37,872 bases of DNA from an uncultured Clostridia bacterium (lineage in GTDB: Bacteria; Bacillota; Clostridia; TANB77; CAG-508). The stretch covers positions 1 through 37,872 of the forward strand of contig CALXWU010000006.1 of the NCBI GenBank assembly GCA_944392505.1, read 5' to 3'. A program made the position numbers and the translations under genes. Positions 6,040-25,630 of this stretch are shown one piece after another. The notes beneath the pieces are model-generated. The model did not search any database and was not told where the DNA came from. It saw only the letters and a list, made by a program, of their open reading frames with translations. Numbering within the stretch: position 1 is the first letter of the stretch; the number at the start of each line of letters is the position of its first letter.

Positions 6040-7683
6040 CTACAAATTTTTCACACTTGGTCCATATATTAAGTTCCCCTTATAATCATATCTTGAGCCA
6101 TGACATGGACAATCCCATGTTTTGTCCAAGTTATTCCAGGAAAGCTCACATCCTAAATGTTTGCAAACAGGATCTACTTTATAGATCTCTCCCTCCTTAT
6201 CTTTATATATACCTATTTTTTGTCCATTAACTTCAACTATCTTTCCTTCCCCCTCTTGTATTTGATTTGCTGCTTCTTGTGGTATTTCTAGTTTTTTTAT
6301 TACTAAAGAATTTACACTTTCCTTAACCATATTTGTAACTTCTTTTATGTTTTTTATTGGTTCTAATCTTGTTGCTTTAAAAACTTCTTCATATTCATTT
6401 TTCTCCCCTAATATCTTGTCTGTTATAATTCTTGCCGCTATGTTCGAGCTTGTTATACCCCACTTATTAAAGCCTGTTGCCACATAACAATTCTCCCATA
6501 ATTTTGACAATTCTCCTATATATGGTATTTTATCTAATGTTATACAATCTTCTGTATTCCAATGATATTTTATCTTTCCTTTTGGATAGATATTTCTTGC
6601 CACTTCTTCTAAGTATTTGTATGAATTACTTAAATCTATCTGTGCTCCTGTCTTATGATCAAATCCAGCTACAATAAGCAAATATTCGTCTCCATATTTT
6701 GCCGTTCTTAAAGATATTGTTGGCTCTCCCGAGTTTATATACATACCTTCAAATAGTCTTTCTTTTGTTTGCATTCCTATTGCATAACTTGTGGATTGAT
6801 ACATTTTAACAAAATAAAAACCTGGAATATTTACTATAGGATATTTTGTTGCAATAATTAAATATTTAGCTTTTATTTTATACCCATTTTCAAGTGTTAT
6901 AATATAATATTCGTCTTCATCTTCTGTCTCTACATCTATTGCTTTTGTATGTTCATAGATTTTTATTCCCGAATCGCTACATATTTTAGCTAAAGCATTT
7001 GCATATTTGTACGGATTAAATTGTGCCTGATGTTCAAACCTAATTGCTAATAGTGCTTTTATAGGAAGGAGATTTTTCATTCTTTCTTGAACTCCATTAG
7101 CTTCAAGGTTTATATTTTCTCTTACAATATTATCCACATCTATTTTTAGTTTTTGTGCATTGTTTTCCACACTTTCCACATATTCATCACAATGCAATCT
7201 ATTTAATTCTATATCAGGTGAATGCACTAATTCTGCTTTTCCTCCAAAATTATTTACCGCTTCTACCTCAGCTTTTATTTTTTGAACCTCTTGCACACTT
7301 TGCGTATATACGTATGCAGGCTGGTATTCAAAATCACAATCAATATTTTCTTTGTCAATAATATCTTTTATTTCTCTTATTGCTTCTTCATTAGCCTCAT
7401 AATACTTTCTTGCAAAATCTTTTCCTTTAGAATCTGTCAAATATTTGTAAATAAGTCCGTGTTGGCTTGTAATTTTTGCAGTACTATTTCCACTAGTTTG
7501 TCTACAAATTTCACCTTTTTCAAGCAAAACTGTTCTTATCTTGTACTTACTTAAATAATATGCAGTCGAAAGACCTGTAAGTCCACCGCCAATTATGCAT
7601 ATATCTGTTTTAATGTTTTGTTCTAATTTGTCAAATCTTTTTTTCTCTTCCTCACTTAAACTGTTTATCCAATAAGATTTCAT
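6040..7683 (-). CDS. FAD-dependent oxidoreductase (DAO fold) fused to a Rieske [2Fe-2S] domain
   Basis: The N-terminal domain (to about residue 430) is a DAO-type flavoprotein: the dinucleotide-binding loop IIGGGLTGLSTAYYL at about 31-45 and LLEKGEI follow the usual pattern, and GFNKWGITSS near 400 is the C-terminal FAD-contacting loop. The last 90 residues form a Rieske domain with both cluster motifs intact: CKHLGC and CPCHGSRY supply the two Cys and two His ligands, ending with GPSVKNL. This fusion occurs widely in Clostridia and Bacilli; its substrate is not established, though relatives are annotated as amino-acid oxidases or electron-transfer enzymes. Length 547 aa is normal. ATG 7683 has AGGAGG upstream. 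Single-gene transcript. No signal peptide is seen, so it acts in the cytoplasm. Confidence 0.9.
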   Translation of the reverse strand: MKSYWINSLSEEEKKRFDKLEQNIKTDICIIGGGLTGLSTAYYLSKYKIRTVLLEKGEICRQTSGNSTAKITSQHGLIYKYLTDSKGKDFARKYYEANEEAIREIKDIIDKENIDCDFEYQPAYVYTQSVQEVQKIKAEVEAVNNFGGKAELVHSPDIELNRLHCDEYVESVENNAQKLKIDVDNIVRENINLEANGVQERMKNLLPIKALLAIRFEHQAQFNPYKYANALAKICSDSGIKIYEHTKAIDVETEDEDEYYIITLENGYKIKAKYLIIATKYPIVNIPGFYFVKMYQSTSYAIGMQTKERLFEGMYINSGEPTISLRTAKYGDEYLLIVAGFDHKTGAQIDLSNSYKYLEEVARNIYPKGKIKYHWNTEDCITLDKIPYIGELSKLWENCYVATGFNKWGITSSNIAARIITDKILGEKNEYEEVFKATRLEPIKNIKEVTNMVKESVNSLVIKKLEIPQEAANQIQEGEGKIVEVNGQKIGIYKDKEGEIYKVDPVCKHLGCELSWNNLDKTWDCPCHGSRYDYKGNLIYGPSVKNL

Positions 7684-11976: not shown

Positions 11977-13116
11977 CTACTTTCTTTTTAAGACCGCTTC
12001 CACCTCTATTTCTCTATAATTTCTTTGTACTCGTAAAACCACAGTATCCCCCGGTTTTTTGGTATAAATATAACACCTTAAATCACACATTCTTCCTAAT
12101 TTATGGTCATCTATGGAAAGTAAAATGTCTCCCTCTTTTATTCCTGCACTTTCTGCTGCTGAATTTGTATTTACTCTAGCTACATAAATTCCTTCATTAA
12201 ATCTTAAATTTTGATCAATATATCCCAATACATTTTTATCAAAGGCAAATATTCCTAAACTTGCCTCCTCAAATTTTCCGCTTGTATTAAAACTTGCAAT
12301 TACAGATTTTACAGTATTTATAGGAATAGCGAAACTAATTCCTTCTGCTGAAGTTATTTTTACACCATTTATTCCTATTACTTGTCCATCTATATTTATC
12401 AACGGTCCTCCGCTATTTCCCGGATTTATTGTTGCATCTGTCTGTATTAAATCTTCCATATATGTTTCTTGTTCGTTTTCTTCAAATTTAATGGTTCTAT
12501 TTATCGCACTTACAATTCCGGAGGTAACACTTCTTTGAAATTCAAATCCTATCGGATTTCCTATTGCATATACAGTTTCTCCTACTTGTATTGCATCTGA
12601 ATCTCCTAAAGTTGCTACTGGTAGATGCTTTTGATTAATCTTTACGATCGACATATCTATATCAGTATTTGACCATACTACTGTTCCATCATATGTTTTA
12701 CCATCTACTAAGGTAACATAGCATTTGCTATACCTTTCTCCACTTACATGTGCATTGGTAAGAATATATCCATCTTTTCCCACAATTAACCCTGTTCCAA
12801 GACCTAAATTTGTAATATTTTCACTTGAAAATATGCTGTTCCCTGAATTTTTTACTTTAGAAATTCCTACAACTGTTGAATTTATATCAGCAATCATTTC
12901 TGTTACAGTTTTATCATTTTCTTTTACTTCTTCTACAGTTTGCAAGGTTCTTTCTATTGTAACCTTTTGTTCACTTAAATTTGTATCTGTAATTTGAGTC
13001 TTTTGATATAGTATGTAGGATAAAATTAAAATCAAAAAAACTAAAAGGATTATTAATACCTTTATTAATTCTCCCTTTAGTTTTTTATTTTTATCTTGTT
13101 TATAGTAATCCTTCAT
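11977..13116 (-). CDS. htrA: HtrA/DegP-type membrane-anchored serine protease
   Basis: A basic N-terminus and one transmembrane helix (about residues 19-37) anchor the 379-aa protein with its protease outside the cell. The S1C triad is intact: H123 in TNAHV, D152 in TDIDM and S235 in GNSGGPL. A single PDZ domain follows (about 285-379, with GIYVARVNTNSAAESAGIKEGD). This is the HtrA layout of Bacillota, used in quality control of exported proteins. GGAGG precedes ATG 13116. The gene ends about 130 bases before the cysteine-rich gene and is separated from the acyl-CoA ligase by a repeat-containing gap. I see no CssRS-like regulator beside it. Proximity to a predicted peptide-aldehyde synthetase is suggestive only, because aldehydes of this kind mainly hit Cys and Thr/Ser proteases of other classes. 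Confidence 0.92.
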   Translation of the reverse strand: MKDYYKQDKNKKLKGELIKVLIILLVFLILILSYILYQKTQITDTNLSEQKVTIERTLQTVEEVKENDKTVTEMIADINSTVVGISKVKNSGNSIFSSENITNLGLGTGLIVGKDGYILTNAHVSGERYSKCYVTLVDGKTYDGTVVWSNTDIDMSIVKINQKHLPVATLGDSDAIQVGETVYAIGNPIGFEFQRSVTSGIVSAINRTIKFEENEQETYMEDLIQTDATINPGNSGGPLINIDGQVIGINGVKITSAEGISFAIPINTVKSVIASFNTSGKFEEASLGIFAFDKNVLGYIDQNLRFNEGIYVARVNTNSAAESAGIKEGDILLSIDDHKLGRMCDLRCYIYTKKPGDTVVLRVQRNYREIEVEAVLKRK

Positions 13117-13225: not shown

Positions 13226-13279
13226 TCCCCTGGTTCCAAATTTGGAACAAAATGTGTATCCCCTGGTTTCACACATTTT
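13226..13279. repeat. Palindromic intergenic repeat with CCCCTGG direct repeats
   Basis: Contains a 16-bp perfect palindrome GTTCCAAATTTGGAAC (13233-13248), a 10-bp direct repeat TCCCCTGGTT (13226-13235 and 13259-13268), and a 9-bp stem AAAATGTGT/ACACATTTT (13249-13257 with 13271-13279). Composition and the GTCCCC core recall the element at 7701. It overlaps the stop of the acyl-CoA ligase gene. Confidence 0.7.
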
Positions 13280-14966
13280 CTAATTTCTTAATTTCCACAT
13301 ATCTTTTTACTTTTTGTGTTGTTGTTTTTTCCATTGGTTCATTTGTAATGATTATTTCTTTTATATGTTTATATGTTGGTAGATCTTTGTTTATCTCTTT
13401 AATATCTTGCCAAATTAGCTCTTTGTATTCATCAACAGTTTTATCTCCAAAATGCTCCTTAATATTGTCCTCATTATACACAATTTTTGCACATAGCAAG
13501 GTATCTGTTTTTGATTTGTCTCTTGAATATACTAAGCTTTCGTCTACATATGGAAGTTTATTAATTAAAAATTCTAGTTCTTGTGGATAAATGTTTTTAC
13601 CATTTCTTAATACTATAATGTCACTCTTTCTTCCTGTAACAAATATATATCCATCTGAATCTATGTATCCATAATCACCTGTGTGAAGCCATCCATCTTC
13701 AAGTGCTTTTTTGGTTGCTGCTTCATTTTCATAATATCCCAGCATTATATTTGGACCTTTTCCTAGAATTTCACCAACACCATCTTTATCTGGATGGTCT
13801 ATTTTTATTTCCACATTTTTTAGTGGAATTCCTATTGAGCCAGCTCTTTTTCTGTCAGATGCTTCTGCTGTTAAAACAGGTGAGCTTTCTGTTAGTCCAT
13901 ATCCTTGTATTAGTTCTATCCCTAAATCATTATACCATTCTATTGTTGCTTTATCCATCGGTGCCGCTCCATAAAGCACTACTCTTAAATATTCGTCAAA
14001 TTGTTTTAATACTGGTTTAAATAGTTTTTTTCTTACATCTATTTTACATTTTAGTAATCCGTGAGAAAGTTTTGTCATTTTGTCTATTAAACCTTTTTTT
14101 CCACTATCACTAATTGCTTTTTGGATTTTTTTAGCCATGGTTTCTAGTACTAAGGGTACTGCAACAAATATAGTTACCTTAAATTCTTTTAAATTATCTG
14201 CTATATATCTTAAACCTTCGCAGAAGGCTATTGTAGCACCGCAATAAGTTCCATAAATAATCGTTATACTACATTCAAAGGTATGATGAATTGGTAGAAA
14301 TGATAGCAATGTATCTTCTGGTGTCATCATAAAATTGTATTGATAAGCAGAAACATTTTTGCAAATATTTTCTTGTGATAGCATAACTGCCTTTGGTTCA
14401 CTTGTAGTTCCTGAGGTAAATAACATAATATACATTTCATTTTCTTTTAATTTTACATCATCATATTTTGCTTTTCCTGCTTTTATTATATCCTCTCCAT
14501 CTTGTAGCATTTTTTCAAATTTTAGAACCCCAGCTTTATCAATATTATCCATACAGATTTTATGATTAATATTGCAGCCTTGTGATATAGCTTCATTTAC
14601 TGCATTTTCATATTTTTCATCATAAACAACAGTATCTACTTCACTTCTTTTTAAAAGCTTTTCTATTTCTTTATCTGTCAATGCTTTATCTAGCGGAACA
14701 ATTATACTTCCAGCTGTTACTACTCCTAAATATGTTACCACCCATTCGTATCTGTTATTTCCTATTACTGCTACTCTTCTAGCGTCTGAAGCTAGTACTT
14801 TTTCTGCCGCTTTCTTTATATCACTTACGAATTGTGAATAAGAGATTTCTTTAATCTCTCCCTCCTTTTTATACTTGAAAGCAATATTATCTCCAAATTT
14901 TTCATATCTTTTTACTAGCTCTCTAAAATTACTTACTTCTTCATAATATTCTGGTTTCTTTCTCAC
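13269..14966 (-). CDS. AMP-binding long-chain acyl-CoA ligase (fatty acid activation)
   Basis: The 565-aa enzyme belongs to the ANL superfamily and forms acyl-AMP and then acyl-CoA (or acyl-thioester on a carrier). Motifs in order: MLFTSGTTSEPKAVM (A3 loop), IHHTFEC, VVLYGAAPMD, IQGYGLTESSP (A5), WLHTGDYG (A7), GRKSDIIVLRNGKNIYP (A8) and TTTQKVKR with the C-terminal catalytic Lys. Start is GTG 14966 with AGGAGG five bases before it. The gene is divergent from the NRPS gene across 243 bp. In such clusters a ligase can supply the fatty acyl starter used by the first condensation domain, so it may belong to the pathway. However, similar ligases are widespread housekeeping genes in Clostridia, so the link is inference. 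Confidence 0.9.
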   Translation of the reverse strand: MRKKPEYYEEVSNFRELVKRYEKFGDNIAFKYKKEGEIKEISYSQFVSDIKKAAEKVLASDARRVAVIGNNRYEWVVTYLGVVTAGSIIVPLDKALTDKEIEKLLKRSEVDTVVYDEKYENAVNEAISQGCNINHKICMDNIDKAGVLKFEKMLQDGEDIIKAGKAKYDDVKLKENEMYIMLFTSGTTSEPKAVMLSQENICKNVSAYQYNFMMTPEDTLLSFLPIHHTFECSITIIYGTYCGATIAFCEGLRYIADNLKEFKVTIFVAVPLVLETMAKKIQKAISDSGKKGLIDKMTKLSHGLLKCKIDVRKKLFKPVLKQFDEYLRVVLYGAAPMDKATIEWYNDLGIELIQGYGLTESSPVLTAEASDRKRAGSIGIPLKNVEIKIDHPDKDGVGEILGKGPNIMLGYYENEAATKKALEDGWLHTGDYGYIDSDGYIFVTGRKSDIIVLRNGKNIYPQELEFLINKLPYVDESLVYSRDKSKTDTLLCAKIVYNEDNIKEHFGDKTVDEYKELIWQDIKEINKDLPTYKHIKEIIITNEPMEKTTTQKVKRYVEIKKLENV

Positions 14967-15145: not shown

Positions 15146-15174
15146 TTGTCTTTTCCAGACATTGATAGTATAAT
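15146..15174 (+). promoter_or_regulatory. Sigma-A promoter of the NRPS gene
   Basis: TTGTCT (15146-15151), 17-bp spacer, TATAAT (15169-15174). The expected start near 15181 gives a leader of about 30 bases containing the AAGGGTG ribosome site. The rest of the 243-bp divergent region shows no clear operator. Confidence 0.7.
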
Positions 15175-15209: not shown

Positions 15210-18200
15210 ATGAAAAAGTACAATTTAACAATTCCGCAAAATAATATCTGGCTAGTGGAAAATTTTTATGATGATAAATCTATTAATATTTTAGCAGGCA
15301 CTTTCACTGTAAAAACAGGCTTCAACCCTGATCTTGCTAAAAAAACCATTAATAAATTTTTCGAATTAAATGATGCTACTAGATTAAAGTTTGTAAAAGA
15401 AGGTAGTACTTTATATCAATATGTAGAAGAATATAAACCTTTTGAGGTTATAGTAAAAGATATTTCTAAAATGACTGAGCAAGAGTCGATGAAATTAAAA
15501 CAAGAGCTCATTGCCGAGCCACTTGACATCTCAAAAAATCCATTTAATTTTATTCTTTTGGATAGAAAAGATGGCTATGGCGAGTTCCTATTAAAATGTC
15601 ATCACTTGGTTTCAGATGCTTGGTCTGTTTCTAAAATGGGAACAGCTTTACAAAACATCTACGAAAAGTTTTTAAATAATGACACTAATTTTGAAAAAGC
15701 ACCTAGCTATATTGACTTTGTTGTTGATGAACAGAGTTACATTGGTAGCGATAAATATATTAAAGATGAAGCCTTCTGGAAAGAATATTTAAGTAATTTT
15801 TCTGAGCCTGTCGGTTTAAAGTCTAAAGAAAATTTAACAACTAATGCTCGAAGATTCCACAGAGTATTAGCTGGAACATTAACTCAAAAAATTTATGATT
15901 TTTGTAAGAATAACAGATTATCTCCATATTCTTTATTCTTGTCTGCAATAGCAATTTATATTCACAGAGTTACAGAAAGTAACGATATTATTATCGGTAC
16001 TCCTGTTCTTAATCGCTCTAATTTTATTCAGAAACAAATTCAGGGCATGTTCGTTGCGACTGTCCCTGTCAGATTTAAATTTGATGGTGACATGAGCTTT
16101 ATTAACTTCTGTAATAATGCTGTTTTAAACAGTATGCAAATATTTAAACATCAAAAATTCCCATACAATAAAATAATGAAAGAGACTTCAAAAGAGAATA
16201 ATAATGAAAATTTATTCAATATTGCTTTCTCATACCAAAATGCAAGGGCTCAAATTAACTTAGAGAAGTATAATATTGATTGGATTTTTAGTGAAAAAAT
16301 TCAAGATGAAGTAGAATTCCATTTATTAGATCTAAATGACAGCGGACATTTAGAATTTGATATAGATTATTTAACAGATATTTTTGAAGAAAAAGAAATC
16401 GAATTTATTTATAGTAGAATATTAAATATTATTATTCAAGGAATGGAGCAAAATCCAAGTATTTCACAAATAGATATTATTTCACCAGAGGAAAAAAATG
16501 CGATTTTAAGTATTAATAATACAGTACACCCATATGCCTCAGATAAATCTGTGATTGAATTATTTGAAGAAGTGGTTGCAAAACATCCTAATGATACTGC
16601 CCTTATTTTCGAAGATAAGAAAATGTCATATGCAGAATTAGATAGAAAATCAAAGGAAGTTGCTGCCTTCTTACAAGCACAAGGGATTAATTCCAAGGAT
16701 AGAGTTGCTATTTGTATTGATAAATCCTTTAATTTGTTAATAGGAATTCTAGCGGTTCTAAAATGTGGGGCAACTTATGTTCCTTTAGATGCAAATTATA
16801 CTGATGATAGAAAGTTATATATTTTAAAGGAATCAAATGCTAAATTAGCTTTAAGTGATGATAGTTTTAATTTGAATTTTAGAAGTATAAATATTAATAG
16901 CGTACTTGCTAATTATGAAAAAGATAGCACAGGTTCAGCCGATTTCAACCCATGCTCTACTTCTAGCACCTCTCCTGTTTGTGTACTATATACTTCAGGA
17001 ACCACAGGTATGCCTAAAGGTGTGGAAATAATTAATAGAAACATTATAAAATTAGTTACTAATATAACATATATGGATTTTCCGGAAGATGCTAGAATTT
17101 TACAAGTTGCATCAACTGTATTTGACCTATCAATTTTTGAATTCTGGGCTTCACTATTAAATGGAAAAGCCTTATGCTTAATTACAAAAGATAATTTACT
17201 AAATTTCAAGTATTTAAAAAGTTACATTGATGAGAATAATATCAATATTATGTGTATTACATCAGTTTTATTCAATCAACTTGTTGCAAATCATATTAAG
17301 GTATTTGAAAATATGAAACAAATTTTAACTGGTGGAGATAAAATTTCCACTGAACATGTGAGAATTTTGAAAAATACATATCCTGATATTAAAATATATA
17401 ACTCATACGGACCTACGGAATGTACTTCTTTCTGTACCATGTATGAAATTAAAGATTTTAATAGTAAATACATTCCTATTGGAAAGCCAATTTCAAACTC
17501 TGCTGGTTATGTATTAAACTCAAAAAATGAATTAATGCCCTTCTATTGTTCTGGAGAATTAGCAATTGGTGGAGATGGTGTTTCAAATGGATATATCAAC
17601 AATCCAGAAAAAACAGCAGAAAAATTTATAGATAACCGCTTCAATAATGAGTTTATAGGTAAAAAGATATATAAAACAGGTGATTTGGTAAGACTTCACC
17701 CTGATGGAAATCTTGAATTTATTGGAAGAGTGGATAACCAAGTTAAGCTTCGTGGATATAGAATTGAATTAGATGAAATTAAGAGTATTGTTTTAAAATA
17801 TCCAGGTATTGAAAACTGTGCAATTGTGATTAAAGAAGATGCTTTTAATAAAAGTAATAAACATATTTTGATATATTTTACTGCTAAAGAAAAGATTGAT
17901 ATTTCTTCTTTAAATAAGTACTTAAGCAAAAACTTACAAGCATATATGATGCCTTCTGGAATAATGCAATTAGAAAAAATGCCTATGAATTCTAATTACA
18001 AGGTAGACACCTCAAAACTTCCAGAGATTGCCTTAAATACTAAAAAGCATATCAAACCAGAAACTGATATAGAAATAGATTTATATGACTTTATCAAAAA
18101 ACTATTGCATATAGAGAAATTTAGTATTGATGATAACTTATTCTCACTAGGTTTGGATTCACTTTTTGCTATAGAACTTGCTAATTACATTAGTGAAAAA

Positions 18201-21200
18201 TATAAGGTAAATATTTCAACTAAATTAATTTTAGAGAATAACACTATATTGAATTTGGAAGAATACATTAACGAAGCAAATAGTACTAGTGATAATAAAG
18301 AAAACATTATTGAAACTAATATTACTCCTGGAGAAAAGAGTGTTTATTTAGAATGGCTCAAAGAGCCTTCAAACACGCTATATAATGCTCCTTTTGAATT
18401 AAAACTTGATAGAAATATTAATCTTGATTTATTAAAAGAAAGCATTTTAAAAACCATACATAATAATAAAAATATGTGTGCTATATATAGCATTAAAGAT
18501 AATGAAATTACAAAATCCTTTGAAATGGATAAACCTTATGATATTAAAGTAGAAAACGTTTCAGATGAGGAATATTTGTTTATAAAAGAGGATTTTGCAA
18601 AACCCTTTAATTTGAATGAATTTCCTTTATTTAGAATAAACATTTATGTTACAGAAAAAAATGTTTATGTTTTGCTGGATATTCATCACATCATATTTGA
18701 TGGTTCTTCATTTATAATCTTCATGAAGGAAGTAGCTGATAGATATAATGGAGCTAAAGTAGAAGAGAAATCTAATAGCGATATATATATGAGTGTTCCT
18801 ACTGCTTTAATGGAAGCATCAAAAAAATTCTATTTAGAAGAATTTGCAGGGGATTTGCCTGTTAATGATCTTCCATATGACAAACCAAGAGAAAAAGAGC
18901 GTAAATTTGTTGGAAATCATATATCACTTGCTATGGATAATAAATTAACTAATAAAGTAAATGAATTTATTAAAAAACACTCTATAACTTTAAATACATT
19001 TTTACAATCTGCCTTCTCTATTATGCTATCTAAATACACATATAGTGAAGATATAATTTATGGAATTGCGTACTCTGGAAGGGAAAGTAAAGCTTTAGAA
19101 AACGTTGTAGGTATGTTTGTTAGAACTGTTCCATACAGGGTAAATATTGATTGGGATAATACTGTGCTTGGCTTTATGGAAAATACACAAAAACAGACCC
19201 TTGATTATATGTATTACAGTAACTATAGTTATGATAACTTGGTTAAGGATTTAGAATTGCCTCGTTTAAGTAATAGAAATGCTTTATTTGATGTAATGTT
19301 CGTGTGCCAAAATATGCATATAGATAGTTTTAAATTTGGAGATACCACTACCAAGTTTAACCCTGTAACTAGAAATACTTCTAAATTTGATTTTACATTT
19401 GAAGTAATTCCTTCAAGCGATAAAATAAATATAAATTTGGAATATGATGTAGAGTTATTCAGTGAGAAAAATATGTATAGAATGATTAATCACTATATCC
19501 ATATAATTAGTGAAATCCTTTTTAAAGCAGAAGCAAATTTGAAAGATATTGAAATGATTTTACCTGAAGAGAAAAAGCAAATAGAAAAATTTAGTGATAA
19601 CAAAACAAATTATCCTAAGAAAACAGTTTGTAAATTATTTGAGGAGCAAGTAGCAAAACATCCAGATAAAAAAGCGGTAGTTTTCGGAGATACGTTCTTA
19701 ACATATGCAGAGCTAAATTCTAAAGCGAATAAAATTGCCAGGTATTTAATTCAAAATGGTTTGAAACCAAAACAAGTTGTAGCAATTATGATTGATAAAT
19801 CTTTAGAATATTTGCCAGCAGCAATCGCCATATTAAAATGTGGAGCTACATATACTCCAATTATTGAGGATTTGCCTGATGAAAGAGCTAAATATATGAT
19901 CGAAAATGCAAAATCTGCATTTGTACTAACAACTAAGAAATTCTTCAGAAAAATTACTGAGGTTCCAGAAATATTTATTGATAATGAAGAATTATATAAT
20001 TCACTTCCAGATGATAATTTAAATTTAGAGTGTGATATAGATGATGTTCTCCACATTATATACACCTCTGGTTCAACTGGAGTTCCTAAGGGCAATATGA
20101 TTAAAAACAGAGGAATGGTAAGGCTTTTACTTGATACAAATTACATAGATTATACAGATAAAGATGTAATGGTAACTTCTGCCTCGCTAACCTTTGATAT
20201 ATCTGGATTTGAATTATGGGGTGCAATGCTTTATGGAATGACTCTGCATATGCTTACAAAAGAACAAATAATGAATATATCGTATTATTCAAACTATTTA
20301 ATAGAAAATAAAATCACTACAACCTTTTTAGCAACACCTATTTTCCACTTAATGGTTGAGGAAAATGTTGATATGTTTAGGAATATGAGTTCAATATATG
20401 TTGGTGGAGAAACCTTGCTTCCAAAATACACAAACATGCTATTTAAAGCATTTCCAAATATAAAAGTATATAACGCATATGGCCCAGCTGAAATAACAGT
20501 TATCTGTTGTGCACAATTAATTGATAGAATTTATGAAAGCTATGAAGACATTCCATTAGGAAAAATAGTATGTAATAACACTGTGTATGTTTTAGATAAA
20601 TGCCAAAAAATGTGTCCTATAAACATCCCAGGAGAGCTATATGTATTTGGTGATGGATTAGGCTATGGATATATAAATAGAGAAGATTTAACAAGAGAGA
20701 GATTTACATATGTTGATGGTTTTGAAGGATTATCATATAGAAGCGGTGATTTGACTAAATGGAACGATAAAGGTGAAATCAGATTCATGACTAGAATTGA
20801 CAAACAAGTTAAAATACGTGGTCAGAGAATCGAGCTCGCTGAAATACAAAATAAAATGTTAGAGCTAAAAGAATTAAAAGAGGCAGTTGCAATTGTAGTT
20901 ACAAATAATGAGAATAAATATATTATTGCATATTATACCACTAATACACCAATTACCTCAGAAGAAGTGCATGATTATTTAATAAAATATTTGCCAGATT
21001 ACATGGTTCCATATAAATTAGTAGAAGTTCCTGAAATACCATATACACATAATGGCAAAATAGATAGAGCAAGACTTCCAAAAGTAGAATTTGCCAAGGA
21101 ACATGCTGCAAACGAGCAAGTAACACCTGAAGAGAAGGTAATTGTAGATGCATTTAAGACAATATTAAAAACTAATAATATTTATTTAGATTCAAACTTC

Positions 21201-22583
21201 TTTGAAGTGGGTGGTGACTCTCTTGCTGCAGCAAGATTAGTGGCTGAACTTCAAACGCATAAGGTTTATGTGTCATATGGAGATATATTTAATTATTCAA
21301 CTCCTAGACAAATTTATGAGTATGTATATTTAAACCATATAAATGACATTATGTCTGGAAGAGTTTCTAAAGATATTAATTTTGATAGAATTGATAAGTT
21401 GCTACAAGAGACCAGCTATAAAGGCGAAGAAGTTAAATTATATGACCATATTGGAAATGTCTTACTTACTGGAGTAACAGGCTTCTTAGGTGTACATATT
21501 TTGAAGGAACTAGTATACAATGATAAAGTAGATAAGGTATTTTGCTTAGTAAGAGATAAAAATAATCTATCTTCAGAGGAAAGATTTAAAAAGCAATTAG
21601 CCTTCTTCTTCGAACCTGATATTGTAGAAAAAATAATGAGTAAAACTTCAGTAGTTAATGGAGATATTTCTAATCCAAATTTATTTAATGAAGAGTTTAA
21701 TGATAAAATTGATATCGTAATTAACTCTGCTGCCCGAGTAAAACATTATGGTGATTACAGTAAGTTCTATAACGTAAATGTATTAGGTGTAAAAAATATA
21801 ATTAAATATTGCACAGATCATAATGCAAGATTAATACATATATCTACACTTAGTGTTTCTGGTAATATCATAGAAGCTGGTCAAACAATGAAACAAGCAG
21901 TATTAAAAAATACACATTTCTATGAAAATAACCTATACATTGGACAAGATATAGAAAATGTATACGTAAATACAAAATTTGCAGCCGAAGTAGAAATATT
22001 AAATCAAATTATGGATTGCGGCTTAGATGCCAAAATATTAAGATTAGGTAATTTAACGGGAAGACTTTCGGATGGAAAATTCCAACCAAATGTAGAAGAT
22101 AATGCCTTTTCAAATAGAGTAAAAGCATTAACTGAACTTCATGCAATGCCAGAATCAATGTATGAGAAATATATTGAGATGACTCCAATTGATGTAGTAT
22201 CAGATGCAATTAATAAAATAATGGAGATATCAAATAAGAATATTGTTTATCATTTATTTAATCATAACCATATTCCTATGCCATATTTTGTTAAGATATT
22301 AAAATCTTTTGGTGTTAATGTAGAAATTCTAAACAAAGAGAGCTTTACACAATTATTGTATAGCTATATGGAAGATGAAGAAAAAGTAAAAATTATACAA
22401 GGAATTATTCCAGATATTGCAGAAGACGGAACTTTAGAGTATAATGATAATATCATTATAGATTCTGATATTACCAAAGAGATAATGCACAAGGTTGGTT
22501 TTGATTGGCCAACCTTAGGTGAGGACTATATTGTAAAGTATTTGGAATATTTGAATAAGATTGGCTTCCTAAATCTTAAATAA
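15210..22583 (+). CDS. Two-module NRPS, C-A-T-C-A-T-R, predicted dipeptide aldehyde synthetase
   Basis: 2457 aa. C1 (about 1-430) has H131-H132-LVSDAW, with Ala where most C domains have Gly. A1 (445-945): YTSGTTG at 594, YNSYGPTE, YKTGDL, catalytic K931. T1 carries S984 in LGLDSL. C2 (1030-1450) has canonical HHIIFDG at 1159-1165. A2 (1470-1965): YTSGSTG at 1618, YNAYGPAE, K1950. T2 carries S2004 in GGDSL. The terminal R domain (about 2080-2457) has GVTGFLG at 2088-2094, T2213 and Y2252-x-x-x-K2256, the Thr/Tyr/Lys set of NAD(P)H-dependent thioester reductases. No epimerase or thioesterase is present. Expected product: an N-acylated or free dipeptide aldehyde released reductively; free-amine forms cyclise to dihydropyrazinones and pyrazinones. 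By eye the specificity codes are DLFCLGSSFK (A1) and DIFFYGAVIK (A2), neither matched confidently. A leading C domain argues for N-acylation. Confidence 0.95.
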   Translation: MKKYNLTIPQNNIWLVENFYDDKSINILAGTFTVKTGFNPDLAKKTINKFFELNDATRLKFVKEGSTLYQYVEEYKPFEVIVKDISKMTEQESMKLKQELIAEPLDISKNPFNFILLDRKDGYGEFLLKCHHLVSDAWSVSKMGTALQNIYEKFLNNDTNFEKAPSYIDFVVDEQSYIGSDKYIKDEAFWKEYLSNFSEPVGLKSKENLTTNARRFHRVLAGTLTQKIYDFCKNNRLSPYSLFLSAIAIYIHRVTESNDIIIGTPVLNRSNFIQKQIQGMFVATVPVRFKFDGDMSFINFCNNAVLNSMQIFKHQKFPYNKIMKETSKENNNENLFNIAFSYQNARAQINLEKYNIDWIFSEKIQDEVEFHLLDLNDSGHLEFDIDYLTDIFEEKEIEFIYSRILNIIIQGMEQNPSISQIDIISPEEKNAILSINNTVHPYASDKSVIELFEEVVAKHPNDTALIFEDKKMSYAELDRKSKEVAAFLQAQGINSKDRVAICIDKSFNLLIGILAVLKCGATYVPLDANYTDDRKLYILKESNAKLALSDDSFNLNFRSININSVLANYEKDSTGSADFNPCSTSSTSPVCVLYTSGTTGMPKGVEIINRNIIKLVTNITYMDFPEDARILQVASTVFDLSIFEFWASLLNGKALCLITKDNLLNFKYLKSYIDENNINIMCITSVLFNQLVANHIKVFENMKQILTGGDKISTEHVRILKNTYPDIKIYNSYGPTECTSFCTMYEIKDFNSKYIPIGKPISNSAGYVLNSKNELMPFYCSGELAIGGDGVSNGYINNPEKTAEKFIDNRFNNEFIGKKIYKTGDLVRLHPDGNLEFIGRVDNQVKLRGYRIELDEIKSIVLKYPGIENCAIVIKEDAFNKSNKHILIYFTAKEKIDISSLNKYLSKNLQAYMMPSGIMQLEKMPMNSNYKVDTSKLPEIALNTKKHIKPETDIEIDLYDFIKKLLHIEKFSIDDNLFSLGLDSLFAIELANYISEKYKVNISTKLILENNTILNLEEYINEANSTSDNKENIIETNITPGEKSVYLEWLKEPSNTLYNAPFELKLDRNINLDLLKESILKTIHNNKNMCAIYSIKDNEITKSFEMDKPYDIKVENVSDEEYLFIKEDFAKPFNLNEFPLFRINIYVTEKNVYVLLDIHHIIFDGSSFIIFMKEVADRYNGAKVEEKSNSDIYMSVPTALMEASKKFYLEEFAGDLPVNDLPYDKPREKERKFVGNHISLAMDNKLTNKVNEFIKKHSITLNTFLQSAFSIMLSKYTYSEDIIYGIAYSGRESKALENVVGMFVRTVPYRVNIDWDNTVLGFMENTQKQTLDYMYYSNYSYDNLVKDLELPRLSNRNALFDVMFVCQNMHIDSFKFGDTTTKFNPVTRNTSKFDFTFEVIPSSDKININLEYDVELFSEKNMYRMINHYIHIISEILFKAEANLKDIEMILPEEKKQIEKFSDNKTNYPKKTVCKLFEEQVAKHPDKKAVVFGDTFLTYAELNSKANKIARYLIQNGLKPKQVVAIMIDKSLEYLPAAIAILKCGATYTPIIEDLPDERAKYMIENAKSAFVLTTKKFFRKITEVPEIFIDNEELYNSLPDDNLNLECDIDDVLHIIYTSGSTGVPKGNMIKNRGMVRLLLDTNYIDYTDKDVMVTSASLTFDISGFELWGAMLYGMTLHMLTKEQIMNISYYSNYLIENKITTTFLATPIFHLMVEENVDMFRNMSSIYVGGETLLPKYTNMLFKAFPNIKVYNAYGPAEITVICCAQLIDRIYESYEDIPLGKIVCNNTVYVLDKCQKMCPINIPGELYVFGDGLGYGYINREDLTRERFTYVDGFEGLSYRSGDLTKWNDKGEIRFMTRIDKQVKIRGQRIELAEIQNKMLELKELKEAVAIVVTNNENKYIIAYYTTNTPITSEEVHDYLIKYLPDYMVPYKLVEVPEIPYTHNGKIDRARLPKVEFAKEHAANEQVTPEEKVIVDAFKTILKTNNIYLDSNFFEVGGDSLAAARLVAELQTHKVYVSYGDIFNYSTPRQIYEYVYLNHINDIMSGRVSKDINFDRIDKLLQETSYKGEEVKLYDHIGNVLLTGVTGFLGVHILKELVYNDKVDKVFCLVRDKNNLSSEERFKKQLAFFFEPDIVEKIMSKTSVVNGDISNPNLFNEEFNDKIDIVINSAARVKHYGDYSKFYNVNVLGVKNIIKYCTDHNARLIHISTLSVSGNIIEAGQTMKQAVLKNTHFYENNLYIGQDIENVYVNTKFAAEVEILNQIMDCGLDAKILRLGNLTGRLSDGKFQPNVEDNAFSNRVKALTELHAMPESMYEKYIEMTPIDVVSDAINKIMEISNKNIVYHLFNHNHIPMPYFVKILKSFGVNVEILNKESFTQLLYSYMEDEEKVKIIQGIIPDIAEDGTLEYNDNIIIDSDITKEIMHKVGFDWPTLGEDYIVKYLEYLNKIGFLNLK

Positions 22584-22654
22584 AACTATGAGTAAGATTA
22601 AATGAATAGTCTCGAAAACAATTTAAAACACAAATGAAGGAGAAAGGATTAAAA

Positions 22655-24475
22655 ATGATTGATCGTTATGTAGAATTGCTGCTTTTTGTAACTTTAATTG
22701 CTACTATTTCACTAGCCTTTTTTACAAGGAAAAAGAAAAAAGAAGAATTGTATAGTCTATTTAGAATATTATTCGTTCTACTTTCTATACATGTATTTGC
22801 ACTGATGTTACTTTTCTATTTTAAAGATTCCTTTATGAATCAGGAAAATTTGCTATTTATTGATGGTATAAGCTATATTTCAACCTGCAATCTTCCTGTA
22901 ATACTATATTTTATCGCTTTAAAATATGAAAATAAAGAAGCAGACTTAAAAAAATACTGGCCTTTATTTATAATACCGGTTTTAACCATACTAATAATTT
23001 ATACAAATCCAATGCATCATTTATTCTGTAAAAATTACTCAATAAACGTATCAGATGTAGACTTAGGGCCATATTTCTATGTTCATATGATTTACACATA
23101 TGCCCTATTGGTTATCGGATTTATAAGGATAATAAAAACCTCTATAAAAAGAGCTGGATTTATATCGTTAGGTACTATTTTAATAATTATAGGAGCATGT
23201 GCACCTATAATACCTAACTTACTAGCTTCTCTACAGATTATGTCAATGGATACATATGTAACACCAATTATGTTTTTAATTACTGCAATTTGTTTTTACA
23301 TATCAATATTCCAATTGAACTCATTTGATGCTGTACCTATAGCTTTAAAAAATATTGTAAATATTATGACAGATGCATTTATAGTTATAGAACAGAATGG
23401 TAATGTAGCATATGTAAATAAATCCTTTATAGATAATTTAGCACCCTTAGTAAAATTAAATTTAAATGATAATTTGTATGAAAAGATGAATGCTTCTAAA
23501 CATACGAGTTACTCAGGATTAATAAAAGCAATTGAATATGCTGAAAAAACAGGAAATTTAACTAGACGTAGTTGGCATATTAGCAATTCTAAAGTTAGAA
23601 AATTTTTTGAAATAGATATACAGCCAGTAAAATCTGCAGAAAAAGCACAAACAATAATTGGTTTTCTGATTGTGTTTAAAGATGTTACACAGCATGTTAT
23701 AGATATTGAAACCATCCAATCCAACCAAAATCTTCTTATGGAGAGAGAACGTTTGGCATCTCTGGGACAATTAATTGGAGGAATTGCACATAACTTAAAA
23801 ACTCCAATTATGTCAATATCAGGTGCTGCCGAAGGATTAAATGATTTAATAAAAGAATACGATTCCTCAATTGAAGATCCAGAAGTTACCCCACACGATC
23901 ATCATGACATAGCTTCAGATATGAGTAGTTGGGTTTCAAAAATTAGATCATACACAGAATATATGTCAGATATTATTACAACTGTTAAAGAACAAGCTGT
24001 TACACTTTCAGAAGATCAAAAAGTTTCATTTACAGTAGAAGAACTTGTAAAAAGAGTAGATATTTTAATGAAACATGAATTGAAAAATGCTTTAATAACA
24101 CTTAATACGCAAATAAACGTTAAAGCAAATAAAACCCTACACGGAAATATAACTAGCTTGGTACAGGTAATAAATAACATGATTTCAAATAGTATTCAAG
24201 CATACAATGGAGAGCCAAATAAAACAATAGATTTAATCATAAATGAAGATAACAACTATATTACAATTTCAATTAGAGATTATGGCTGTGGTTTACCAAA
24301 AGAAGTACAAGATAAATTGTTTAAAGAAATGATAACGACAAAAGGGAAAAATGGTACAGGACTTGGATTATTTATGTCATACTCAACTATAAGAGCTCAC
24401 TTTAATGGTGACATTACATTTGAGTCTAAAGAAGGGGTAGGAACAACGTTTAGCATAATATTACCTATCAAATAA
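22655..24475 (+). CDS. 7TM-PAS sensor histidine kinase
   Basis: About 606 aa. Seven hydrophobic helices fill residues 1-230, with the NPMHHLF motif of the HisK_N-like 7TM sensor family (PF16927 type). A PAS domain follows (about 235-350, with AFIVIEQNGNVAYVNKSF), then the dimerisation/phosphoacceptor helix with H379 in GIAHNLKTP and an acidic, His-rich insert after it (VTPHDHHD). The ATPase domain has the N box MISNSIQAY, the G1 box DYGCGLP and the G2 box GTGLGLF. ATG 22655 is chosen because AAGGAGAAAGG lies 7-12 bases upstream; the in-frame ATG 22634 overlaps that site. The gene is 71 bases from the NRPS stop with no terminator or promoter between, so it is probably co-transcribed. The signal is unknown; a small-molecule or membrane ligand suits the 7TM input. 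Confidence 0.9.
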   Translation: MIDRYVELLLFVTLIATISLAFFTRKKKKEELYSLFRILFVLLSIHVFALMLLFYFKDSFMNQENLLFIDGISYISTCNLPVILYFIALKYENKEADLKKYWPLFIIPVLTILIIYTNPMHHLFCKNYSINVSDVDLGPYFYVHMIYTYALLVIGFIRIIKTSIKRAGFISLGTILIIIGACAPIIPNLLASLQIMSMDTYVTPIMFLITAICFYISIFQLNSFDAVPIALKNIVNIMTDAFIVIEQNGNVAYVNKSFIDNLAPLVKLNLNDNLYEKMNASKHTSYSGLIKAIEYAEKTGNLTRRSWHISNSKVRKFFEIDIQPVKSAEKAQTIIGFLIVFKDVTQHVIDIETIQSNQNLLMERERLASLGQLIGGIAHNLKTPIMSISGAAEGLNDLIKEYDSSIEDPEVTPHDHHDIASDMSSWVSKIRSYTEYMSDIITTVKEQAVTLSEDQKVSFTVEELVKRVDILMKHELKNALITLNTQINVKANKTLHGNITSLVQVINNMISNSIQAYNGEPNKTIDLIINEDNNYITISIRDYGCGLPKEVQDKLFKEMITTKGKNGTGLGLFMSYSTIRAHFNGDITFESKEGVGTTFSIILPIK

Positions 24476-24574: not shown

Positions 24575-25630
24575 ATGAGAAAAAATGAAGTACATAGTCC
24601 ATCAAATGGATATAAAATTATTGCAGTAGATGATGAAGAAGGAATTGTAGATTCTCTTTCTATATTCTTAAAGAGATCTGGATATGAATTTACTGGAGTG
24701 ACTGACCCTTTAGAAGCAATTGAAAGAGTTAGAAATGAACATTTTGATTTAATGATTTTGGACTTCATCATGGAACCAATACATGGAGATAAAGTTGTAG
24801 AAGAAATTCGTAAATTTAATAAAGAATTATACATCCTATTGCTTACTGGACATAAAGATTTAGCACCACCGCTTGAAACTATTAGAAAATTAGATATTCA
24901 AGGATACTGTGAGAAAAGTGATAAATTTGACCAGTTATTGCTTTTAATTGAATCTGGTATTAAATCAATTGCCCAGATGAATGAAATAAAGCGAATTAAT
25001 TTAGAACTTTCAAACACATATGAAAAATTAGAAAAAGCATATCTAGATAGCATCCAAACTTTAAGATACACTGTTGAAGCAAAAGACCCATATACACGTG
25101 GCCACTCAGACAGGGTTTCTGCTTATTCTGTATTAATTGGAGAAAAACTTGGATTATCTGAGGATGATTTAAAAACTTTAAGAGTTGGCGGATTATTTCA
25201 TGACATTGGTAAAATAGGAATACCAGATAGCATACTTTTAAAAGAATCAAAGCTTACAGATGATGAATATTCAGAAATAAAGAGTCATCCAGCTATTGGC
25301 GCACACATCTTATGTAATGCAGAAGTATTTAAAGACATAATTCCTATTGTAAAACATCACCATGAAAGATATGATGGAAGAGGTTATCCATGCCAGTTAA
25401 AAGGTGAGGATATACCATATTTTGCAAGAATAGCAACTATTGCAGATGCTTTTGACGCAATGACCTCAAAAAGAACATACAGAAACTCTTTACCAATTGA
25501 TATAGTAAGAGCAGAAATAGAAAAAAATTTAGGAACACAGTTTGACCCAAAAATTGGTAAAGCATTCCTTGATATATTAAATAATGATTATGAAAAGATT
25601 GAGAAAATAAAAGAAGATTACCCATCTTAA
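24575..25630 (+). CDS. Response regulator with HD-GYP c-di-GMP phosphodiesterase output
   Basis: 351 aa. The receiver domain (about 13-130) has the acidic pair VDDEE, phosphoacceptor D63 in MILDF, and Thr/Lys switch residues (LLLTGHKD; YCEKSD). A coiled-coil linker (about 138-160) leads to an HD-GYP domain with all metal ligands and the signature: HSDR, H209-D210 in FHDIGKIG, KSHPAIGAHI, HHHERYDGRGYP, and ADAFDAM. Family members hydrolyse c-di-GMP. Being next to the kinase, it is the likely phosphotransfer partner, though a dedicated promoter separates it. Other HD-GYP-REC proteins have been found to work without c-di-GMP turnover, so output should be tested. The convergent pilin-like gene ends after a shared terminator. 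Confidence 0.93.
   Translation: MRKNEVHSPSNGYKIIAVDDEEGIVDSLSIFLKRSGYEFTGVTDPLEAIERVRNEHFDLMILDFIMEPIHGDKVVEEIRKFNKELYILLLTGHKDLAPPLETIRKLDIQGYCEKSDKFDQLLLLIESGIKSIAQMNEIKRINLELSNTYEKLEKAYLDSIQTLRYTVEAKDPYTRGHSDRVSAYSVLIGEKLGLSEDDLKTLRVGGLFHDIGKIGIPDSILLKESKLTDDEYSEIKSHPAIGAHILCNAEVFKDIIPIVKHHHERYDGRGYPCQLKGEDIPYFARIATIADAFDAMTSKRTYRNSLPIDIVRAEIEKNLGTQFDPKIGKAFLDILNNDYEKIEKIKEDYPS

Follow-up and report, generated by a model that had tools for sequence, protein, structure and literature searches.

The small hydrophobic signals of the CqsA/CqsS and LqsA/LqsS systems are made by a synthase whose gene adjoins that of a multi-TM kinase. CqsA and LqsA are PLP-dependent hydroxyketone synthases, i.e., no NRPS takes part in these systems. 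Staphylococcal agr is a pherotype locus like ComQXPA of Bacillus. For the latter, synthase/signal and sensor half are known to be hypervariable and matched (PMC12935306). Quorum sensing of Xanthomonas via Rpf/DSF is based on RpfF-RpfC-RpfG (PMC5391125).

Here, we compare these systems with a locus found in the window, i.e., the whole analysed stretch of 37,872 nucleotides, which comes from a Clostridia genome of 1.2 Mb that is 78% complete. With regard to Rpf/DSF, the locus shows the same layout of a (here putative) signal synthase, a multi-TM histidine kinase without large extracellular domain and a REC-HD-GYP regulator, the active site of which is present as well. It differs in that an NRPS takes the position of RpfF, the kinase is 7TM plus PAS compared to 5TM in Rpf, and chemotypes are switched in a coupled manner. 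No RpfF (enoyl-CoA hydratase-type) synthase was found among the scanned neighbouring genes, and the kinase is not a hybrid with its own REC and HPt domains, i.e., it is composed of 7TM-PAS-HisKA-HATPase only. With ComQXPA and agr, the locus shares a matched hypervariable synthase and sensor half, a conserved kinase half and regulator, and the fixed chromosomal position. Since an NRPS gene lies between flank and kinase, an NRPS-made signal is predicted, in contrast to the ribosomal peptides of ComQXP/agr, and the output is an HD-GYP protein where the known systems have a DNA-binding regulator. Our literature search returned no NRPS-kinase quorum-sensing system, which is weak evidence of novelty given that most subscription papers lie outside the search.

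NRPS gene and predicted product

The original prediction described an intact C-A-T-C-A-T-R NRPS that has its catalytic residues and no thioesterase, and both Pfam and all core motifs agree with it. The gene is one intact, frameshift-free ORF (ATG at 15210, stop ending at 22583) and comprises the following features.

15146..15174, + strand: promoter-like site TTGTCT-17-TATAAT 5' of the NRPS (consensus match only)
15210..22583, + strand: NRPS gene, C-A-T-C-A-T-R, 2457 aa (Pfam and core motifs)
15210..16499, + strand: C1, condensation domain of putative starter type (HHLVSDAW at residue 131)
16563..18020, + strand: A1 adenylation domain (pocket code DLFCLGSSFK)
18072..18284, + strand: T1 carrier domain (GLDSL 981-985)
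18363..19583, + strand: C2 condensation domain (HHIIFDG at 1159)
19632..21080, + strand: A2 adenylation domain (pocket code DIFFYGAVIK, hydrophobic pocket)
21132..21329, + strand: T2 carrier domain (GGDSL 2001-2005)
21456..22574, + strand: R, terminal NAD(P)H reductase (GVTGFLG 2088, YVNTK 2252)

Pfam reports two Condensation (E 2.8e-151), two AMP-binding (4e-142) and two PP-binding domains (9e-23) as well as a NAD_binding_4 reductase (6e-42), and the same scan of the 2457 residues found no thioesterase. Core motifs of A1 are NSYGPTE (residue 731), YKTGD (821), GRVDNQVKLRGYRIE (839) and the lysine in NYKVD (929), those of A2 are IIYTSGSTGVPKG (1616), NAYGPAE (1755), YRSGD (1843) and NGKID (1948). 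The carrier serines of T1 and T2 are both present (GLDSL, GGDSL), and so are the Rossmann and YxxxK motifs of R. Since full-length orthologues of 72-84% identity exist in three further genomes of the genus, one of them a chicken MAG, the NRPS is not an artefact.

The pocket codes were extracted against a PheA reference, which itself gave the expected PheA code. We know of no code that matches DLFCLGSSFK (A1) or DIFFYGAVIK (A2), for which reason an amino-acid substrate call was dropped for both domains.

C1 is the first C domain of the chain and has no carrier domain upstream. Its motif is HHxxxDAW and not HHxxxDG; among the relatives examined, first C domains as a rule have HHxxxD[AS]W. The PDB matches of C1 include 7c1h/7c1k-type C structures, which we take to be starter C domains, while the matches of C2 do not. 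Given the missing upstream carrier, the separate motif class and these structure matches, an acylated aldehyde is likely, i.e., the N-acyl cap that had been proposed from the leading C domain is likely, too. The further claim of an aldehyde-forming reductase gains from the intact R motifs, and release of a peptide aldehyde is predicted. Judged by domain order, the product is thus probably an N-acyl dipeptide aldehyde.

The NRPSs of ruminopeptin (rup) and of the gut cluster BGC0001686 have this exact order with an N-terminal C domain, two modules and a terminal reductase. AusA (aureusimine/phevalin) is also a dimodular NRPS with terminal reductase but, unlike the window NRPS, has no N-terminal C domain; for the AusA model NF047350, the window NRPS reaches 1609.4 bits and stays below the curated cut-off of 2500. 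Ruminopeptin from Ruminococcus bromii is an acyl dipeptide aldehyde of a gut NRPS (PMC12327764), and N-octanoyl-Met-Phe-H is the product of BGC0001686 (PMC8518294). Both come from gut Firmicutes NRPSs yielding acyl dipeptide aldehydes, and the suggested kinship of the window NRPS with this gut family is supported (PMC12327764, PMC8518294).

Kinase, regulator and their association with NRPSs

The kinase and regulator genes 3' of the NRPS, which were not part of the original prediction, turned out to be key. They and the genes on the other side of the NRPS are listed below.

22634..24475, + strand: sensor histidine kinase 7TM-PAS-HisKA-HATPase (ATG 22655, preceded by AAGGAG, is the more likely start)
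22634..23338, + strand: 7TM sensor domain of the kinase (PF16927), variable, NRPS-matched
23339..23683, + strand: PAS domain of the kinase, variable
23687..24472, + strand: kinase half, DHp with AHNLKTP and CA, conserved at 73-91% in the genus
24575..25630, + strand: response regulator REC-HD-GYP with full catalytic motif (HDIGK 209, HHERYDGRGYP 262)
13269..14966, - strand: acyl-AMP ligase, divergent, kept beside the NRPS within the genus in every chemotype (see below)
11977..13116, - strand: HtrA-type serine protease, in many cases the next divergent gene within the window's family and family f4

A motif check shows the catalytic residues of both kinase and HD-GYP regulator to be intact. The structure model of the kinase (mean pLDDT 79, pTM 0.44, i.e., with uncertain domain placement) features seven helices of 19 to 30 residues each, followed by PAS, DHp and CA. 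Fold searches returned only kinase and PAS-kinase folds and none for the sensor parts. The acyl-AMP ligase is a possible supplier of the acyl starter, the link of HtrA to the locus is uncertain, and the cassette of NRPS, kinase and regulator holds no exporter gene. Elsewhere in the window (6040-7683, - strand), a FAD-dependent DAO oxidoreductase is fused to a Rieske iron-sulphur domain; this gene lies near the locus in several relatives.

A related NRPS-type match was found in 81/95 genomes of the order. The order-wide pattern is an NRPS of one, two or three modules, then a same-strand histidine kinase and usually an HD-GYP regulator. Within these 95 genomes, 39 of the 43 PF16927 kinases are placed directly behind a same-strand NRPS (gap of -41 to +230 bp). 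The four exceptions comprise a gap of 607 bp, a contig end, a second kinase in between and a kinase without NRPS. Furthermore, PF16927 is absent from 13/14 genomes that lack an NRPS match. That all 7TM kinases adjoin NRPSs is ruled out by a class-wide control, i.e., among the best-scoring 30 7TM kinase loci only two are NRPS-linked, both from the window's family.

Three-module NRPSs of 3292 and 3493 aa precede the same kinase type (L074:1038-10916, L077:2814-13295). For the one-module NRPSs of the order, another kinase type in the same place has two TM helices, a large extracytoplasmic part and HAMP. In four one-module loci (L117, L119, L121, L124), two neighbouring ORFs cover the kinase, one of 404 aa for the sensor and one of 261-276 aa for the kinase part, which may reflect a split gene, frameshifting or a repeated assembly fault. 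Another locus (L086:1027-10302, genome G057) holds a one-module NRPS, a broken extracytoplasmic-type kinase, a broken 7TM kinase and a regulator; this looks like a half-finished cassette exchange, or like sequencing errors.

In a profile search with the kinase half, the family was present in 47/391 genomes of the class. Outside the order, the kinase follows an NRPS in eight families, and the NRPS terminus is in some cases a thioesterase, a bare T domain or about 390 unannotated residues. Given this variation, it is the sensor kinase that stays constant, and the aldehyde represents one variant among others. The about 390 residues after the T domain in L139:5650-9951 and L146:2892-7214 match no Pfam family and are possibly an unrecognised release domain. 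No NRPS linkage of the kinase was seen in f56, where one examined kinase carries a dCache sensor, and in the single locus examined for f30, and an HD-GYP regulator was not found beside the kinase in the examined stretches of f5. One f43 genus has a 543-aa protein exactly at the NRPS position, before a 7TM kinase and an HD-GYP regulator (L142:4176-5807, L143:3854-5485, L149:3147-4778). This protein has no relatives in Pfam, NCBIfam or PDB and is possibly a different signal synthase.

Coupled variation of NRPS and sensor half

To assess coupled variation, we used 17 genomes of one genus, that of the window, with a single syntenic slot, the neighbours of which are, on one side, the acyl-AMP ligase and HtrA and, on the other, Tex and an ABC-F gene. 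Identities between species of the genus are mostly 80-95% for the flanks, about 89% for the regulator and 73-91% for the kinase half. NRPS and HK sensor half (7TM+PAS) form discrete chemotypes, i.e., both show identities of about 30-55% between and 56-89% within chemotypes. The identity drop inside the kinase is sharp and located at residues 340-370. The A-domain pocket codes do not vary within a chemotype and differ between chemotypes.

The Mantel correlation of NRPS A2 and 7TM is r=0.94 and remains at 0.94 given Tex and at 0.93 given the kinase half, compared to 0.12 for NRPS and Tex, a flanking housekeeping gene; significance is rough here, since the permutation treats related genomes as exchangeable. 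We also compared genome pairs matched for a Tex identity of 84-92%. Within chemotypes, these pairs show identities of 74% (7TM), 72% (NRPS), 82% (kinase half) and 90% (RR), while the respective values between chemotypes are 41%, 37%, 80% and 89%. Due to the matching, genome divergence is excluded as cause of the chemotype gap. For a one-module system with a different sensor type (six genomes), the sensor correlates with the NRPS at r=0.99 and the kinase at 0.04.

The trees of NRPS R and 7TM share their main groups, and these are not confined to single genera or families. Both trees group the window clade with another family, while the kinase half remains in its own family. An own-family clade is rejected by the AU test for R (p=0.009) and the sensor (p=0.023). 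The tree of the kinase half alone does not significantly reject the NRPS clade of the window (AU p=0.22). We thus dropped the kinase half alone as proof of recombination and base the argument on identity profile and correlations. Because of the physical linkage of NRPS and sensor, a single recombination event moves both. That is, what these sequence comparisons capture is a matched exchange of NRPS and sensor half, not ligand binding.

Proposed signalling role and alternative explanations

We consider it probable (about 70%) that the cassette serves cell-cell signalling, i.e., that the adjacent kinase binds the aldehyde or one of its derivatives as ligand and that this molecule thereby controls the turnover of cyclic dinucleotides. 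The putative starter C domain would take a fatty acyl group, two amino acids would be added by the NRPS, and the reductase would release the putative N-acyl dipeptide aldehyde by a chemistry known for this domain order. The lipophilic product would then leave the cell and bind to the downstream kinase via its membrane-embedded 7TM sensor, as suggested by the strict adjacency and the coupled diversification; a lipophilic acyl aldehyde would also suit this sensor, since it is almost wholly membrane-embedded in the model. Given the adjacent genes, the kinase would phosphorylate the REC-HD-GYP regulator, which in turn would change cyclic-di-nucleotide levels. Synthetase and sensor half would be swapped jointly at the fixed slot while kinase half and regulator stay, resulting in private chemotypes (pherotypes). 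The joint change of enzyme and sensor, as read from the gene sequences, suggests that the molecule serves these gut bacteria for private chemical signalling. Some results speak against this account: the cassette has no exporter gene, neither PilZ nor the c-di-GMP-I riboswitch was found among the searched members of the window's family, and of the two GGDEF proteins examined in this genome, one is a degenerate GGDEF-EAL protein and the other a REC-GGDDF protein.

On the scale of the class, we lean, with somewhat less confidence, towards an unrecognised quorum-sensing family in gut Clostridia, in which the NRPS would make the autoinducer, the swappable HK sensor half would be the receptor and HD-GYP the output. 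NRPSs for peptide aldehydes are widespread among gut bacteria, which so far was attributed to the effect they have on host proteases. If the signalling explanation is true, gut NRPS aldehydes known as protease inhibitors would act as private bacterial signals. A matched receptor would give a reason for the retention of a 7-kb synthetase in uncultured Clostridia whose genomes comprise 1.2 Mb, and it would supply a receptor for such a molecule, which would make the question directly testable.

Protease inhibition as the main role, which the original prediction had put forward, would mean that the acyl dipeptide aldehyde hits serine/cysteine proteases of host or competitors and that the two-component system only regulates or monitors. 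Acyl dipeptide aldehydes of gut Clostridium and Ruminococcus clusters do inhibit cathepsins and the proteasome (PMC8518294, PMC12327764), and the HtrA serine protease is often found beside the locus. However, the conserved partners are the sensor kinase and the HD-GYP regulator and not a protease target, and it is the sensor half, no protease, that diversifies as a pair with the NRPS. Related systems of the class keep the kinase with TE-terminated or otherwise reductase-less NRPSs, HtrA is missing in several families that retain NRPS and kinase, and the regulator's HD-GYP output comes without a DNA-binding domain. We thus regard this role as an unlikely main function, albeit signalling and protease inhibition could exist side by side. 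Still less probable is a mere linkage effect, i.e., the NRPS being fast-exchanging cargo that drags the neighbouring sensor half along without any ligand relation. The NRPS 3' end does adjoin the sensor 5' end, and the kinase half provides the conserved DNA that recombination requires. On the other hand, the kinase association is retained in about ten families with differing other neighbours, the sensor architecture (7TM or 2TM-extracytoplasmic-HAMP) changes with the NRPS type, and the variable block stops at the NRPS start, beyond which the divergent ligase stays conserved.

ACPS-family matches are present in 91/95 genomes, nearly always one and of AcpS size (G000:C1:20534-20824 in the window genome, L001), and Sfp-type N-domains over the cut-off occur in only two genomes, which belong to another family and have them beside an NRPS. 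Without an Sfp-type phosphopantetheinyl transferase, the T domains might remain apo and the locus silent, with which the single AcpS-size enzyme per genome in the family would be compatible. This is very improbable in our view, since NRPSs are retained in the 81 genomes with preserved motifs and a promiscuous AcpS is the simpler answer. That is, as nearly all genomes have no Sfp-type transferase, AcpS presumably primes the NRPS carriers as well as the fatty acid ACP, and such priming is a second testable point.

The window's genome encodes a second NRPS (L047:2820-9988, G000:C37), a one-module C-A-T-R enzyme that has a kinase (667 aa) and a regulator (321 aa) of its own. Its kinase is only 31% like the first one.
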